DNA from: [Zimmermannella] bifida NBRC 103089
GTDB lineage: Bacteria; Actinomycetota; Actinomycetes; Actinomycetales; Microbacteriaceae
Reading direction: 5' to 3'
DNA: 64,000 nt
Assembly: GCF_001570925.1 (NCBI RefSeq)
Contig: NZ_BCSP01000006.1
Coordinates: forward strand, 1-64,000
Notes under the pieces: generated by a model
Databases searched by the model: none
Seen by the model: only the letters and a program-made list of their open reading frames with translations
What the model was told of the DNA's origin: nothing
Position numbers and translations under genes: made by a program
Part shown: piece by piece, positions 9,565-17,175 of the stretch
Position numbering within the stretch: position 1 is the stretch's first letter
How the letters are laid out: the number at the start of each line of letters is the position of its first letter

Positions 9565-9691
9565 GGCGATGCGGCGCGTTCGCACCCGATTTGCGTTCGC
9601 ATCCACAGAAATGATCGAGATTCTGGCGGTGACATCGGCACCCGCCGAGTCGATCACCTGCTGGTAGGTGCCCCGGCGCTACACTCGCGAC

Positions 9692-12600
9692 ATGGCACCA
9701 CAGCTTCCCCCGATGCAACCGGGTAACGCCGCCGATTCTGCCGGTCCCGCGGACCGCCGATTCGCACGCGCCGATCACGAATCGCAGCCTGGCGGACGGG
9801 AAATCGAGCAGGTTCGGGCACGCCGCGTTGAGCGTGCCGACCTGGTTCGTTCTATCCTGCAGCGCAAGCGCGCGCAGCCGGATGCGGACGTTGCGGCTGG
9901 CAGCGATCTGGCGGTTACTGGCCCGGATGCGGTACCCGCACAGCAGGCAGGCATGGTCGCGGTGAGTGCCGAGGACCTGCAGTGGCGCGTGCCCCAGTGG
10001 GATGACGCGCTCGCGACTCGGAATGTGGCCGGTGAGGATGCCGGTGCCGGAGTTGTTGCGGCATCGCCCGCGGTTGACGCTCACCAGCAGGGCCCCGGCG
10101 CCCAGCCGAGCCCTGGTGTGAATGCCAACGATTGGGGAATGCCGGCGGCCGGGACTGGGCCCGACGGCCAGCGTGACGAACTCGGTGCAGTTGGGGTCGC
10201 ATCCGGCGAACCAATCGCCATTGACCACGCCGCATCGCCCGCGCTCGAGATGCTCGGCAAGTGGTGGCGCGAAGACTGCGCCGCGCGCTACGAAATCGAA
10301 CGTGCCAAGCAAGCCGAACCTAACGCGCGCCGCCGCGCGAAGCTCGACGCCGACAGCGAGCTCAACCTCGCCATGCGCAGCGAGGGCGGCGAGGCGTTCA
10401 TGCTCGGCCTTGTCGATGACGTGCTGCGCCCCGACGATCTGCTCGCCTCTGGATTCGGTCTCAGCGACCTTGCCGACCGCATCCCCGAAACCCTGAGTTC
10501 GCGTGCCCGACGGGGCTTCCAGATCGGCGCATTTGCCGGTCCCGGCGTGCCGTTTGTTGCGGTACCTGCTGTGCGCCGGGCGGCGCGCCGACTCTTCGGC
10601 AGCGCCATCATCACCGGCGGTGACGAGGCACTGACGAAGGCCGCTGCCGCCGCGACCGAACTTGGCGCATCGGTCCGTGTCACCCCGCTCACCGATGCCG
10701 TACTTGGCGACCACGGCGTGCACCAATTGCGCGAACGGATGCGGACGCTCGTGTCGCGCGCAGACGTGCACGAAGTCGAACTCACCTGGCGCGACCTGGT
10801 GCCCAACGGCAGCGCCTGGGACTTTATTGGCGCCTGTGAACGCACCGCGATGCAGCTCGCCGAACTCGCCATGGTCGCCCGCCAAGCGCGGCCACCGCAG
10901 GCCGGAGCGCCGGTGCGCCTGATGGTGCGCGCCACCTGCTCGCGCGATGCCGAAGCTGTGGTCGAAACCTGCATGCGGGCCATGAAGATCGACGGGATGC
11001 ATGGCTCGCTACTCGGAGTCGCCCTGCCGGTTGACCTGCCCGAATGTTCGTCGCTCATTCGCCGAGTGGCCGGTAGCGCCCACATGCACCGCGAAGAGGG
11101 CGGACAGCCGCTGCGCATCAGCCTCTTTCGCATGACCGATCGCGGTGTCGAACGCGTGGATGCGCGCCGGCACGAATGGAAGATTGCCACGTTCGTTGAC
11201 GACGCCGACGTCGACGCGAACATGGTGCGCTGCATCGACACGGTGCTCGGCACCGAGCACCACGGCGTGCTCGAACTCGAACTCGACTTTGCGCCAGCGA
11301 TGGATGCGGTGCTCGCGGCCAGTCTCGCGGCGCAGCGTCGCGCACTTGTTCCGGTCTCGGTCATCGTGCCCAACGGCGTCGATGACGCAACGCTGCGCCG
11401 CATCGGTGAGATCGGCGCGCAGCCGAGCGTGCGCATCGCGCAACTGCCCGGTGATGACTTCCGCCCCGCCGTCGGCTACGCGCGCACGCTTATTCAACGA
11501 GCCGCTTGGGGCGAACAGGAACGCCTTGCGCAGCTTGCTGAAGTGACCGCGATCGCGCGGGCACAGGGTACGGCCATTGCGGGAATTACTCCTGGAACCC
11601 CCGCCGGCCCCGGAACTGCCGCCGACCCAGCCGGTGCCGATGCGGTACTGCAGCCCGTTGCCGCCCACGACGGGTACGGCCCACAGCAAGAACGTCTGCT
11701 CAGCGCAATTTCGCGGATGCACCAGCTCCCGGCAGGCAAGATGCGCACGCAGTCTCGAGTCGCGCCCGAGGACGCCCCCGGCATTACCGCGGCGATCGAG
11801 CTCGAACTCTTTCCAGACGGACTCTTTGACGACGAGGCCGCAAACGACGCGAGCCGCGAGGGCACGAACGGTGCAAGACGTGCCGAATCGGCCGCATCCG
11901 GCACTGAACTCAGTGCGGCTGACGCCGCACGCGCGAACGCGAACACGACCGTCCTCGGAAAACGCGACGGCGGTGCATCCGGTTTCGAACTGGCTGGTGA
12001 AACTGACACGGTAGACGAAACTAGCGGGCATCCCGAACCCGGCGCTGCACCTCGCGCCTACGACACGCAAGCGCAGCGCGAAAACCCGGCCGACACCGGC
12101 GCTGCACCAAACCTGACGGAAGTCGTATTGGGACTTCGCCGCGGGCGAATCCTGCGCAACACCTTCCGCAACACGCCCGATAGCGACCCAACACTGCCGG
12201 AGATTCGTGACTGGGCGCGCGCGATTCAGCGCCGCAGTGCTCGCAGCCAGCTTGGCATCGACGAAGCTGCATCACACCACCTGCAGTCCATCGAACAGGT
12301 CACCGAAATCATCGAGCGTGCCAACGCCGCCGGCACCTCGTGGCGCGAAACCTCGGGTTGGGAACGTGCCGCGCAGCTCGAACAGCTGGCCAAGGCGATC
12401 GACGCGAACCGTGCGCGACTCATCGAAGTTGCCATGAGCGAAACCTGCCTGACGTTCGCCGAAGTCGACAGCGATGTAAGCCGCTGCGTCGACCTCGCCA
12501 ACTATTACGCGCACCTCGCCCGGCAGCTTGACCGCATGCAGGGCGCCTCGTTCGACCCGGTGCGCATCACGCTGGTGATTCCCGGTTGGGTGCCGCCGGT

Positions 12601-14254
12601 TTCGTCGGTCGCCAACGGGCTGCTTTCGGCGCTCGCGGCCGGTAGCGCGGCGATCTTGGTGCCGGCCCCGCGCAGCGAACGCACGGCGGCGATCTTCGCG
12701 CGCGTGCTGTGGGCAACCGACCTGCCGGGCGACCTCGTGCAGCTCGCCGGTAATGACCACCAGCGTTTGAGCGAAGACCAGCTTGCGCGCGAGCTCATCG
12801 TCGATGAGCGCGTCGAGCGTGTGCTCATGCAGGGCCACTATGACACCGCCGCGCACTTTCTCGCGTGGCGCAGCGATCTACCGATGATCGGTGCATCCGG
12901 TGGCAAGTCATCGGCCATCGTGACCCCGGCTGCCGACTACGACCTGGCCGCGCGCGATATCGCCACCAGCGTGATCTCGTCGGGCGGGCAGAACCCATTG
13001 CGGCCGTCGGTGGTCATCCTCGTGGGCGCCGCGGGACGCAGCGAACGATTCACCGAACAGCTTGCCGATGCCCTCGCATCCAAGCGCGTCGGTTACCCGT
13101 CTGACCCGGTGGTGGATGCGGGACCGCTCGTTTCGCGCGCCGACCCCAAGGCGATGGAACAGCTCACCTCGCTTGCCGAGGGGGAGCGGTGGATTCTCGA
13201 ACCCCGAAGTGTCGACGACACCGGACGCCTGTGGACCGCCGGTATTCGCGTTGGCCTGACCCGCGAATCGACGGTGCTTACCAACGACGCCATGGTGCCG
13301 GTCGTGAACCTCATTACGGTGCGCACCCTGCGCGAGGCGATCGAGTTGCAGAACGACCTTGACTGCGGGCTCGGCGCCAGCCTGTTCTCACTCGACCGCG
13401 CCGAAATCGCCGAGTGGGTGCAGGGCGTTGAAGCCGGCAACCTGTACGTCAACCGCGACGTAATCGGCATGCGCGTCCAGCAGCAGCCGATCGGCGGCTG
13501 GAACCGCTCGATGATCGGCACGAAGCTCAAGACCGGTGGTCCGAACTCGCTCATGCACCTGGGGCGCTGGCGTGCCGACGAGCACGAACAGTCGAACACG
13601 TTGCACCTGCGGGGGCTTGAGACACCGATCTCGCGCCTGATTGAGGCGCTGCAAGGTGGGCTGAAGTTTGAAGAGTTCGAGCGGGTGCGTCGCACCGCGC
13701 TCAGCTGCCAGATCGCCTGGAACGAGACGTTCGGTGAGGTCACCGACATCAGTAACCTGCGCATCGAACGCAACCTGTTCCGCTATCGACCCGCGCCCTG
13801 CCTCATCCGCTTCTCATCGGATGCGAAGGCCGACGAACTCGGCCAGGTGCTGGTGGCTGCGGTGGCGGCCCGCGCGCCGATCATGATCTCGAGCGCTTGG
13901 GAACTGCCGACCGGTTTGGCTCGCGAGCTCGAGCAGCGTCAGGCATCGGTACGGATCGAGTCGGATGACGAGTTCTTGGCACGGCTGCGGAGCGAGGGAC
14001 TGCGTGAGGCGCCGCGGATGCGGTTGCTCGGTGGTTCGCGCAAGGCGGTGCAGAGCGCGCTCAAGAACGCGGTCGACATCGCGCTGTTCTCGGATGACGT
14101 GACGCTTGCGGGGCTGGTGGAGATGTTGCCGTTCCTGCGCGAGCAGTCGATCTCGATTACCGCGCACCGCCACGGCAACGTCGATGAGCGCGTGTTCTCG
14201 CTGTTCCCGCACGAGACGATTGTCGACCCGGATGCGAGCCTGCTCGGCAAGTAG
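9692..14254 (+). CDS. PutA-like protein with degenerate proline dehydrogenase and aldehyde dehydrogenase domains
   Basis: A 1520-residue protein, longer than typical bifunctional PutA (about 1150). Layout: a low-complexity N-terminus to about residue 190, a proline dehydrogenase-like barrel (about 220-610), an acidic Ala-rich linker (about 640-810), and an ALDH domain (about 830-1300) with the PutA-like C-terminal motifs QPIGGWNRS and KTGGPN, then a further alpha/beta tail. The catalytic residues are missing. The ALDH general-base Glu position reads IGASGGK (Ala near 1068). The catalytic Cys position reads GGQNPLRPS (Pro near 1102). The 34-residue spacing between them is kept. In the barrel the usual IKISS lysine reads VELTWRD, the DAEE aspartate reads RATCS, and the terminal Arg pair is not visible. 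It is an intact frame with normal codon use, so it looks like a pseudoenzyme and not a decaying gene. Confidence 0.75.
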   Translation: MAPQLPPMQPGNAADSAGPADRRFARADHESQPGGREIEQVRARRVERADLVRSILQRKRAQPDADVAAGSDLAVTGPDAVPAQQAGMVAVSAEDLQWRVPQWDDALATRNVAGEDAGAGVVAASPAVDAHQQGPGAQPSPGVNANDWGMPAAGTGPDGQRDELGAVGVASGEPIAIDHAASPALEMLGKWWREDCAARYEIERAKQAEPNARRRAKLDADSELNLAMRSEGGEAFMLGLVDDVLRPDDLLASGFGLSDLADRIPETLSSRARRGFQIGAFAGPGVPFVAVPAVRRAARRLFGSAIITGGDEALTKAAAAATELGASVRVTPLTDAVLGDHGVHQLRERMRTLVSRADVHEVELTWRDLVPNGSAWDFIGACERTAMQLAELAMVARQARPPQAGAPVRLMVRATCSRDAEAVVETCMRAMKIDGMHGSLLGVALPVDLPECSSLIRRVAGSAHMHREEGGQPLRISLFRMTDRGVERVDARRHEWKIATFVDDADVDANMVRCIDTVLGTEHHGVLELELDFAPAMDAVLAASLAAQRRALVPVSVIVPNGVDDATLRRIGEIGAQPSVRIAQLPGDDFRPAVGYARTLIQRAAWGEQERLAQLAEVTAIARAQGTAIAGITPGTPAGPGTAADPAGADAVLQPVAAHDGYGPQQERLLSAISRMHQLPAGKMRTQSRVAPEDAPGITAAIELELFPDGLFDDEAANDASREGTNGARRAESAASGTELSAADAARANANTTVLGKRDGGASGFELAGETDTVDETSGHPEPGAAPRAYDTQAQRENPADTGAAPNLTEVVLGLRRGRILRNTFRNTPDSDPTLPEIRDWARAIQRRSARSQLGIDEAASHHLQSIEQVTEIIERANAAGTSWRETSGWERAAQLEQLAKAIDANRARLIEVAMSETCLTFAEVDSDVSRCVDLANYYAHLARQLDRMQGASFDPVRITLVIPGWVPPVSSVANGLLSALAAGSAAILVPAPRSERTAAIFARVLWATDLPGDLVQLAGNDHQRLSEDQLARELIVDERVERVLMQGHYDTAAHFLAWRSDLPMIGASGGKSSAIVTPAADYDLAARDIATSVISSGGQNPLRPSVVILVGAAGRSERFTEQLADALASKRVGYPSDPVVDAGPLVSRADPKAMEQLTSLAEGERWILEPRSVDDTGRLWTAGIRVGLTRESTVLTNDAMVPVVNLITVRTLREAIELQNDLDCGLGASLFSLDRAEIAEWVQGVEAGNLYVNRDVIGMRVQQQPIGGWNRSMIGTKLKTGGPNSLMHLGRWRADEHEQSNTLHLRGLETPISRLIEALQGGLKFEEFERVRRTALSCQIAWNETFGEVTDISNLRIERNLFRYRPAPCLIRFSSDAKADELGQVLVAAVAARAPIMISSAWELPTGLARELEQRQASVRIESDDEFLARLRSEGLREAPRMRLLGGSRKAVQSALKNAVDIALFSDDVTLAGLVEMLPFLREQSISITAHRHGNVDERVFSLFPHETIVDPDASLLGK

Positions 14255-15936: not shown

Positions 15937-17175
15937 ATGACTGCATCCGAGATCTCACCGAACGCCCAACTCGAAATCGACAAGGTCAACCGCTACACGG
16001 CGCATAACTACGCGCCGCTCGACCTGGTACTGACTTCGGGCGAAGGCGTGTGGGTCACGGATGTAGACGGCAACCGCTACCTCGACTGCCTCACCGCCTA
16101 CTCGGCTGCAACCTTCGGCCACGGCTACGGCAAGTTCATCGACGTCATGCGCGACCAGATGAGCAAGCTGTCGCTCACCTCGCGCGCGGTTTATGCCGAA
16201 GGCATCGGTGACTTCGCCGAGGCGCTCACCAAGCTCGCCGGCAAGGACATGGCGCTGTTCATGAACACCGGTGCCGAAGCCAACGAAACCGCGCTCAAGA
16301 TCGCCCGCAAGTGGGGCGTGCGCGTCAAGGGTCTGCCGCAGGGCGCGGGCAAGATCATCGGCATGGAGGGCAACTTCCACGGCCGCACCACCACGCTCAT
16401 CTCGCTGAGTGACGACCCGGTCGCAACCGCCGACTACGGTCCCTTCACTCCCGGATTCTCGCTGGTGCCGTTCAACGACATTGACGCCCTGCGCGACGCC
16501 ATCGACGACGAAACCGTTGCCGTCATCCTCGAACCGATCCAGGGCGAGGCCGGCATTATTGTTCCGGATGCGGGCTACCTCAAGCAGGTGCGCGAGCTCA
16601 CGGCAGAGCGCAACGTGTTGATGATCTGCGATGAGGTCCAGACCGGTATGGGCCGCACGGGTACCACGTTCCGCTTCCAGGCCGAGGGCATCGAGCCCGA
16701 CCTCATCGTGACCGCGAAGGCGCTTGGCGGGGGCATCCTGCCGGTATCGGCCGTCATTGGTAACGAGGACGTGTTGGGCGTGCTCGAGCCGGGAACCCAC
16801 GGCTCGACGTTCGGCGGTAACCCGCTCGCCGCTGCCGTCGGTACGGCAGTGTGCGAGGAACTCGCCACCGGAAAGCTGCAGGAAAACTGCCAGCAGCTGC
16901 ATCCGGTGCTTCGCGAAGGTCTTGAGGCGCTGATCGGCCGCGGTGTGACCGCAGTGCGCGGCGCCGGCGTCTGGATGGGTGTCGACATCGACCCGAAGAT
17001 CGGTACAGCTAAGGACGTTTGCGTCGACCTGCTCGCGAAGGGCGTGCTCGCCAAGGACACGCACGGCGTGACCGTGCGCCTTGCCCCGGCCATGATCATC
17101 GGCCGCGAAGAGATCGACATGCTGCTGCGCGCGTTCACCGAGGTCATCAACGCCCGTTGGGAGGCGGCAGCGTAA
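15937..17175 (+). CDS. rocD: Ornithine aminotransferase (ornithine-oxo-acid transaminase)
   Basis: A 412-residue class-III PLP aminotransferase. The signature elements are NTGAEANETALKIARKWG, NFHGRTTT, ILEPIQGEAGI, DEVQTGMGRTG, and the PLP lysine in VTAKALGGG (about K261). The start MTASEISPNAQLEIDKVNRYTAHNY is typical of RocD. It transfers the delta-amino group of ornithine to 2-oxoglutarate, giving glutamate semialdehyde/P5C and glutamate. This is notable because the large PutA-like protein two genes upstream belongs to the family that would oxidise P5C but seems inactive. The alpha/beta hydrolase starts 2 bp after the stop, so the two are probably co-transcribed. Confidence 0.93.
   Translation: MTASEISPNAQLEIDKVNRYTAHNYAPLDLVLTSGEGVWVTDVDGNRYLDCLTAYSAATFGHGYGKFIDVMRDQMSKLSLTSRAVYAEGIGDFAEALTKLAGKDMALFMNTGAEANETALKIARKWGVRVKGLPQGAGKIIGMEGNFHGRTTTLISLSDDPVATADYGPFTPGFSLVPFNDIDALRDAIDDETVAVILEPIQGEAGIIVPDAGYLKQVRELTAERNVLMICDEVQTGMGRTGTTFRFQAEGIEPDLIVTAKALGGGILPVSAVIGNEDVLGVLEPGTHGSTFGGNPLAAAVGTAVCEELATGKLQENCQQLHPVLREGLEALIGRGVTAVRGAGVWMGVDIDPKIGTAKDVCVDLLAKGVLAKDTHGVTVRLAPAMIIGREEIDMLLRAFTEVINARWEAAA

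Follow-up and report, generated by a model that had tools for sequence, protein, structure and literature searches.

A PutA-like gene in Gulosibacter raises the question of why a bacterium would keep a full-length copy of a bifunctional enzyme in which the residues of both reactions have been replaced. The gene, termed here dead putA (its product dead PutA, or pseudo-PutA), lies in the window, a stretch of 64,000 nucleotides from [Zimmermannella] bifida NBRC 103089, a Gulosibacter genome with an assembly of 2.13 Mb (G000). Coordinates are collected in Table 1. The initial annotation described a full-length PutA-like protein and a long, intact gene with extra segments, and both descriptions hold. 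The frame of 1520 residues is open, and Corynebacterium freiburgense PutA (5ux5), the best solved relative of dead PutA (residues 211-596 and 824-1378), is the best sequence and structure match over the barrel, the ALDH domain and the C-terminal domain, whereas an N-terminal tail (residues 1-174) and a long linker (residues 606-823) are added in dead PutA. This match, together with the domain layout, identifies the window protein as a PutA homologue extended by 174 residues at its N-terminus and with 218 residues in its linker. The frame remains open back to a GTG at 9668, and all nine complete Gulosibacter copies align on a start at the ATG of position 9692.

Table 1. Features of the dead putA locus, in positions of the window.
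Feature	Coordinates	Strand	Remark
Dead PutA paralogue (pseudo-PutA)	9692..14254	+	open frame, 1520 aa
TACACT, -10-like hexamer 6 bases before ATG, candidate leaderless promoter	9680..9685	+	
N-terminal motif ARRVERADLVRSILQRKR, residues 43-60, inside variable tail	9818..9871	+	9 Gulosibacter and 2 g94 copies aligned
PRODH-like (beta-alpha)8 barrel, residues 175-605, catalytic residues replaced	10214..11506	+	pLDDT 94 model
Barrel signature R329 E361 R413 P446 R480 E530 I558 R581	10676..11434	+	
Enlarged linker, residues 606-823 (218 residues), largely disordered by prediction	11507..12160	+	
Linker motif ERLLSAISRMHQ...RVAPEDAPGITAAIELELFPDGL, residues about 663-714	11678..11833	+	alignments
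Linker motif TTVLG, residues 752-756 (TTILG in some)	11945..11959	+	9 Gulosibacter copies
Motif NPADTGAAPNLTEVVLGLRRGRILRNTFRN ahead of ALDH domain, residues 798-827	12083..12172	+	Gulosibacter and g94 alignments
ALDH-like domain, residues 824-1295, catalytic residues replaced	12161..13576	+	Pfam Aldedh E 3e-62
Ala1068 replacing general-base Glu	12893..12895	+	Glu in 0/21 orthologues
Pro1102 replacing nucleophile Cys	12995..12997	+	Cys in 0/21 orthologues
C-terminal domain, residues 1296-1520	13577..14251	+	103/225 columns invariant in 9 Gulosibacter copies
rocD, ornithine aminotransferase	15937..17175	+	TIGR01885 above cut-off

In the Pfam scan of the window copy, only Aldedh lies above its cut-off (residues 862-1288, E 3e-62) and Pro_dh gives no match; the Pro_dh cut-off is reached or passed by the orthologues of G002, G105 and G167. 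Structure prediction with alignment to PutA, the check proposed at the outset, recovered a PutA-type barrel, an ALDH fold and the C-terminal domain. The AlphaFold2 model of the barrel has a pLDDT of 94.1 with all eight barrel strands present, and superposes on 5ux5 with a Z of 36.8 (329 aligned residues, rmsd 2.6), while 5ux5 is also the first Foldseek match for the ALDH and C-terminal part. By prediction, the PutA fold is thus retained in the dead protein. The C. freiburgense enzyme, which we take to be of class 3B, retains the usual PRODH and GQKC motifs, whereas both sets are replaced in dead PutA. A Walker-A reading of GASGGKS was dismissed by eye, as the first Gly is out of place and the fold is that of an ALDH, and no defence-system model matched.

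At the ALDH active site, the canonical ETSGKN and GQKCSA read ASGGKS and GQNPLR. Ala and Pro accordingly occupy the Glu and Cys positions, as first noticed, and Ala1068 and Pro1102 stand 34 residues apart, the spacing also seen between Glu782 and Cys816 of the intact PutA that this genome encodes. Val967 replaces the oxyanion Asn in the window copy. The suspected replacement of the PRODH Lys, Asp and Arg pair is borne out by alignments to solved PutAs, E. coli PutA among them, which place Thr365, Arg413 and Thr599-Leu600 at these sites; Lys361 (KGAN) was set aside as the catalytic PRODH Lys, since the alignment to solved PutAs gives Lys251 (SIKVSS). None of the 21 orthologues has an intact ALDH Cys or Glu, and all 21 also lack the oxyanion Asn as well as the PRODH catalytic Lys and Asp. 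Of the PRODH Arg pair, the second member is retained in all ten dead copies of a second genus, g94, and in 3 of the 11 from Gulosibacter. The excerpted text on SmPutA lists Cys844, Glu810, Asn707, Lys265, Arg488, Arg489 and Tyr473 as functional residues (PMC12398946), and a role for such residues in PutA is also supported by excerpted text elsewhere (PMC5786444).

The nucleotide site has fared differently in the two genera. Lys990, an NAD contact, is retained in 9/11 Gulosibacter and 8/10 g94 copies (17/21) and is Val in the window copy and in G008. Glu1199 is kept in 8/10 g94 copies and is Asp, once Ala, in Gulosibacter, whose dead copies also carry Thr1047 to Gln and Gly1202 to Val. Since Lys990 in both genera and Glu1199 in g94 are mostly retained, nucleotide binding may persist. 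Judging from these residues, both genera have lost the ALDH catalytic core, with the cofactor site altered further in Gulosibacter. A relocated active site, in a protein that is still an enzyme, would account for the retained Lys990 and for the strong constraint on the ALDH domain, but no candidate nucleophile was identified, and the Gulosibacter changes at positions 1199, 1047 and 1202 also speak against it; this reading is very unlikely. Among 256 columns that are invariant (in at least 40 of 41 active-classed rows), 103 are retained in at least eight of the nine complete Gulosibacter dead copies.

A survey of 150 genomes of the host family (85 genera) located two g94 genomes that scored clearly above all others outside Gulosibacter. 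Dead PutA is present in 11/11 Gulosibacter genomes and in 10/10 genomes of g94, where it shows 49-55% identity in the best piece; the Gulosibacter carriers include G. chungangensis KCTC 13959 and Gulosibacter sp. 10. The frame is long and open in 9/11 Gulosibacter genomes and in all g94 listings. A frame or assembly error as the cause of the lost sites was rejected on the intact frames of the nine Gulosibacter genomes. The fragment copies of G001 (two contigs) and G009 (three frame pieces) were read piece by piece, and the active putA and the glcD gene of G009 are also in pieces, which suggests poor assembly.

The same open frames weigh against a slowly decaying pseudogene, a reading that the lost catalytic residues would otherwise invite. 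In two close g94 pairs (dS 0.41-0.43), Nei-Gojobori estimates of dN/dS for dead PutA are 0.060 and 0.068, and those for the active-type PutA of the same pairs are 0.071 and 0.067. A ~1500-residue bacterial metabolic protein that has lost the residues of both reactions is therefore as tightly constrained as its living copy when close pairs are compared, and dead PutA is kept under purifying selection. The proposed measurement of dN/dS and conservation in relatives thus speaks for a maintained gene. For two g94 pairs that are distant, the estimates are 0.41 and 0.33 for dead PutA and, in one case, 0.41 for active PutA. In Gulosibacter the dead copies range from 0.13 to 0.57 (seven pairs) and the active copies from 0.13 to 0.41 (six pairs), and as dS is biased or high in many of these pairs, only the comparison of dead with active copies matters. 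The value of 0.57 could be taken as a sign of decay, although active PutA itself reaches 0.41, and new residues are fixed in dead PutA rather than random. Decay is contradicted by the close-pair dN/dS and the fixed residues, and is extremely unlikely.

The dead copies appear to descend from one old duplicate. In a quick tree of 61 rows, which included 18 of the 21 dead copies (10 Gulosibacter, 8 g94), they form one side of a branch with an SH-aLRT of 100 and a stem of 0.62. The active PutAs, from Gulosibacter and from the single g94 genome represented, are placed away from them. Dead PutA is probably a neofunctionalised pseudoenzyme, as far as residues and trees can tell: before the split of Gulosibacter and g94, one of two PutA copies lost the residues of both reactions, and with them, presumably, enzyme activity. 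The favoured role for the duplicate is that of a non-enzymatic scaffold.

Partial losses of a similar kind occur elsewhere in the family. Outside Gulosibacter and g94, 42 genomes carry two copies (at a strict threshold, with the top candidates scored), and both copies were read in 27. In 10 of these 27, from nine genera, one copy has lost key residues; these damaged second copies are L053, L054, L055, L056, L058, L067, L134, L151, L153 and L155. The PRODH Lys is lost in all ten, with an unsure alignment for the very divergent L067, and the ALDH Cys or Glu is also lost in eight, L054 and L153 retaining both. Nine of the damaged copies placed on the tree imply six changes, at least five of which are forced by starred branches, so second-copy losses apparently arose several times independently. 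For the damaged pair G136-G063, dN/dS is 0.26 against 0.14 for the active copies, which suggests that the damaged second copies may be younger or looser cases.

The PRODH barrel of dead PutA carries a signature of its own. Eight sites, one per strand and each on the strand or one residue past its end, read N, Y, D, Q, K, G, E and Y in 75/75 active-classed rows, and no orthologue among the 21 retains any of these residues. The replacements are N329R, Y361E, D413R, Q446P, K480R, G530E, E558V (Ile in the window copy) and Y581R, and the resulting pattern R-E-R-P-R-E-[VIL]-R is nearly fixed across the 21 copies; E361 is Q in two Gulosibacter copies, R480 is H in a single g94 copy, and three Gulosibacter copies carry I or L in place of V558. 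Rows were classed as active on ten key residues that include a single signature site, K480, so the 75/75 is not a product of sorting at the other sites, although the exclusion of damaged copies helps. V302F and D591R are also fixed in 21/21 dead copies. The ten damaged copies of other genera share none of the new signature residues except one P446 (L055). As a point against the favoured reading, barrel identity is lower for dead than for active PutA in 6/6 species pairs. The fixed replacements make the barrel look remodelled rather than decayed, and it would either be packed by buried Arg-Glu pairs or bind a new ligand.

The second of these options can be extended to a metabolite sensor, in which the former flavin pocket, now lined by Arg and Glu, would bind a new and perhaps anionic ligand and the linker would relay the change. 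Such a pocket would suit the conserved Arg (four) and Glu (two) that lie on the barrel strands or next to them, and also the fixed changes of Asp591 to Arg and Val302 to Phe, but buried salt bridges would account for the same residues, and we hold a sensor to be rather unlikely. A wider proposal is similarly doubtful: that a bifunctional enzyme became a non-catalytic signalling or scaffold protein, its flavin barrel rebuilt as an Arg/Glu-lined sensor pocket for an anionic ligand, that it persists in small genomes after its catalytic sister is gone, and that like conversions have begun several times. With its active, partly dead and fully rewired members, this one family offers a natural series for asking why enzymes outlast catalysis.

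The favoured scaffold would draw on the added segments of dead PutA. Invariant columns among nine Gulosibacter copies number 203/472 in the ALDH domain, 103/225 in the C-terminal domain (the highest share), 75/431 in the barrel, 34/218 in the linker and 10/174 in the N-terminus. Disorder is predicted for much of the linker, with a pLDDT below 50 at about 100 of the 174 modelled residues (650-823). Within these variable regions lie short conserved motifs. The N-terminal motif has the core ARRVERADLVR (variants occur), and the first linker block has TAxIxxELFP at its end, where one g94 copy reads DLFP and one Gulosibacter copy DMFP. TTVLG is missing from both aligned g94 copies, and the motif ahead of the ALDH domain follows the pattern NPxxTG...LTxVVLGLxRGRxLRNTFR (variants occur). 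In such a role, the rigid body would be supplied by the PutA core together with the C-terminal domain, and the motifs of the tail and linker would bind a partner. If dead PutA is a pseudoenzyme, the chances of this mechanism are about even.

Compared between species pairs, the C-terminal domain of dead PutA is more conserved than that of active PutA in 4/6 pairs (71% against 42% for G007-G000), two of which use the G000 active copy, a long branch; in the other two it is about equal or slightly lower (79% against 80% and 67% against 69%). ALDH domain identity is higher for dead than for active PutA in 2/6 pairs and lower in 4/6.

Precedents for such a fate can be found among related proteins. 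Human ALDH16A1 is described in excerpted text as a pseudoenzyme with an ALDH fold without catalytic residues and a proposed protein-binding role (PMC10650815); the likeness to dead PutA is by analogy, and the same excerpt describes no PRODH half. Certain PutA proteins have a second, regulatory job beyond catalysis (PMC9132996, PMC5293562), although, according to excerpts of these papers, they keep catalysis and regulate through DNA binding, unlike dead PutA. No DNA-binding family was found in dead PutA by Pfam or among the matches listed (the best 25 of 40) for NCBIfam. Reviews of pseudoenzymes, in the portions available, are based mostly on signalling families. No report of dead PutA was found among the top-ranked matches of open-licence PubMed Central, obtained in part by blunt word matching, and the available part of a Gulosibacter paper does not mention proline or ornithine (PMC9477822).

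The initial annotation had suggested a structural, regulatory or channelling partner of an active PutA, close to rocD, and had called for a search for a second, catalytic putA. Such a gene is present in the window genome on contig C17, with its residues intact and as the sole Pro_dh match there. Pro_dh matches besides the dead gene occur in 10/11 Gulosibacter genomes; the ten key residues are intact in eight full copies, as are the readable sites in two fragments. In g94, a second, active-type PutA match is present in 9/10 genomes, with residues read for G105 only (L120). An active-type match therefore accompanies dead PutA in 19/21 genomes, and where both occur a partnership may exist. This co-occurrence would fit a regulatory or channelling partner in a mixed oligomer, as would the invariant-column share peaking in the C-terminal domain, but dead PutA persists in genomes without a living copy. 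Searches of G008 (a single contig, 99% complete) gave neither a Pro_dh match at E 0.001 nor a second PutA match, and in G167 (99% complete) the sole Pro_dh match (27 bits) and the sole PutA matches are the dead protein itself. Partnership with PutA or RocD is thus not what retains the gene in these two genomes. Furthermore, the active PutAs of Gulosibacter do not form one clade. No P5C dehydrogenase exceeds the family cut-off in G008, which says little, as the PutA of G000 also falls below it.

Dependence on RocD was rejected. The gene for RocD was found in 9/11 Gulosibacter and 2/10 g94 genomes (11/21 carriers) and not found in the other 10/21, including G167 and, at E 1e-60, G008; among the Gulosibacter genomes the absence is firm only for G008, since the other one, G001, is highly fragmented. 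The earlier suggestion of a partner of active PutA or RocD is therefore weakened by G008, G167 and the ten genomes in which rocD was not found, while its account of an intact protein under purifying selection, in a genome with an active-type PutA, stands. A mixed oligomer is accordingly quite improbable. The content of G008 and G167 shows that dead PutA was kept for a task that needs neither active PutA nor RocD. In Gulosibacter sp. 10, an extra proline dehydrogenase match (G010:C49:13787-14539) lies in a 377-aa frame that is apparently stand-alone.

Regarding the neighbourhood, rocD is indeed close in the window, two genes downstream of dead putA with a dehydrogenase gene between. Four other genera have an intact PutA close to a rocD match (L061, L062, L064, L079), so the dead gene may occupy the ancestral place of putA near rocD. 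Upstream, TANNCT lies 6-7 bases 5′ of the aligned ATG in 9/9 complete Gulosibacter copies. A -10 box this close to the start codon is expected for a leaderless actinobacterial transcript, and such a transcript from the ATG at 9692 is possible on the strength of this hexamer; a generic promoter scan called no promoter at 9680-9692. The gene set comprising hemD and the upstream genes is seen in Gulosibacter loci and in 0/2 g94 loci, and no neighbour gene accompanies dead putA at every locus.

A glcD-like FAD oxidase gene lies no more than about 2.5 kb downstream of dead putA in 6/11 Gulosibacter and 2/2 g94 loci read. As it is nearby in only 8/13 loci and was not found in G000 and G008 (E 1e-60), a required operon partner was rejected. 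The glcD-like genes of G002, G004 and G010 lie elsewhere in the genome only, and none was seen beside active PutAs in the scanned loci, which were often short. In G007 the glcD-like gene overlaps the stop codon of dead putA, and at L034:2707-4074 (-) the glcD-like FAD oxidase gene comes immediately after dead putA, its start overlapping the stop (TAATG).
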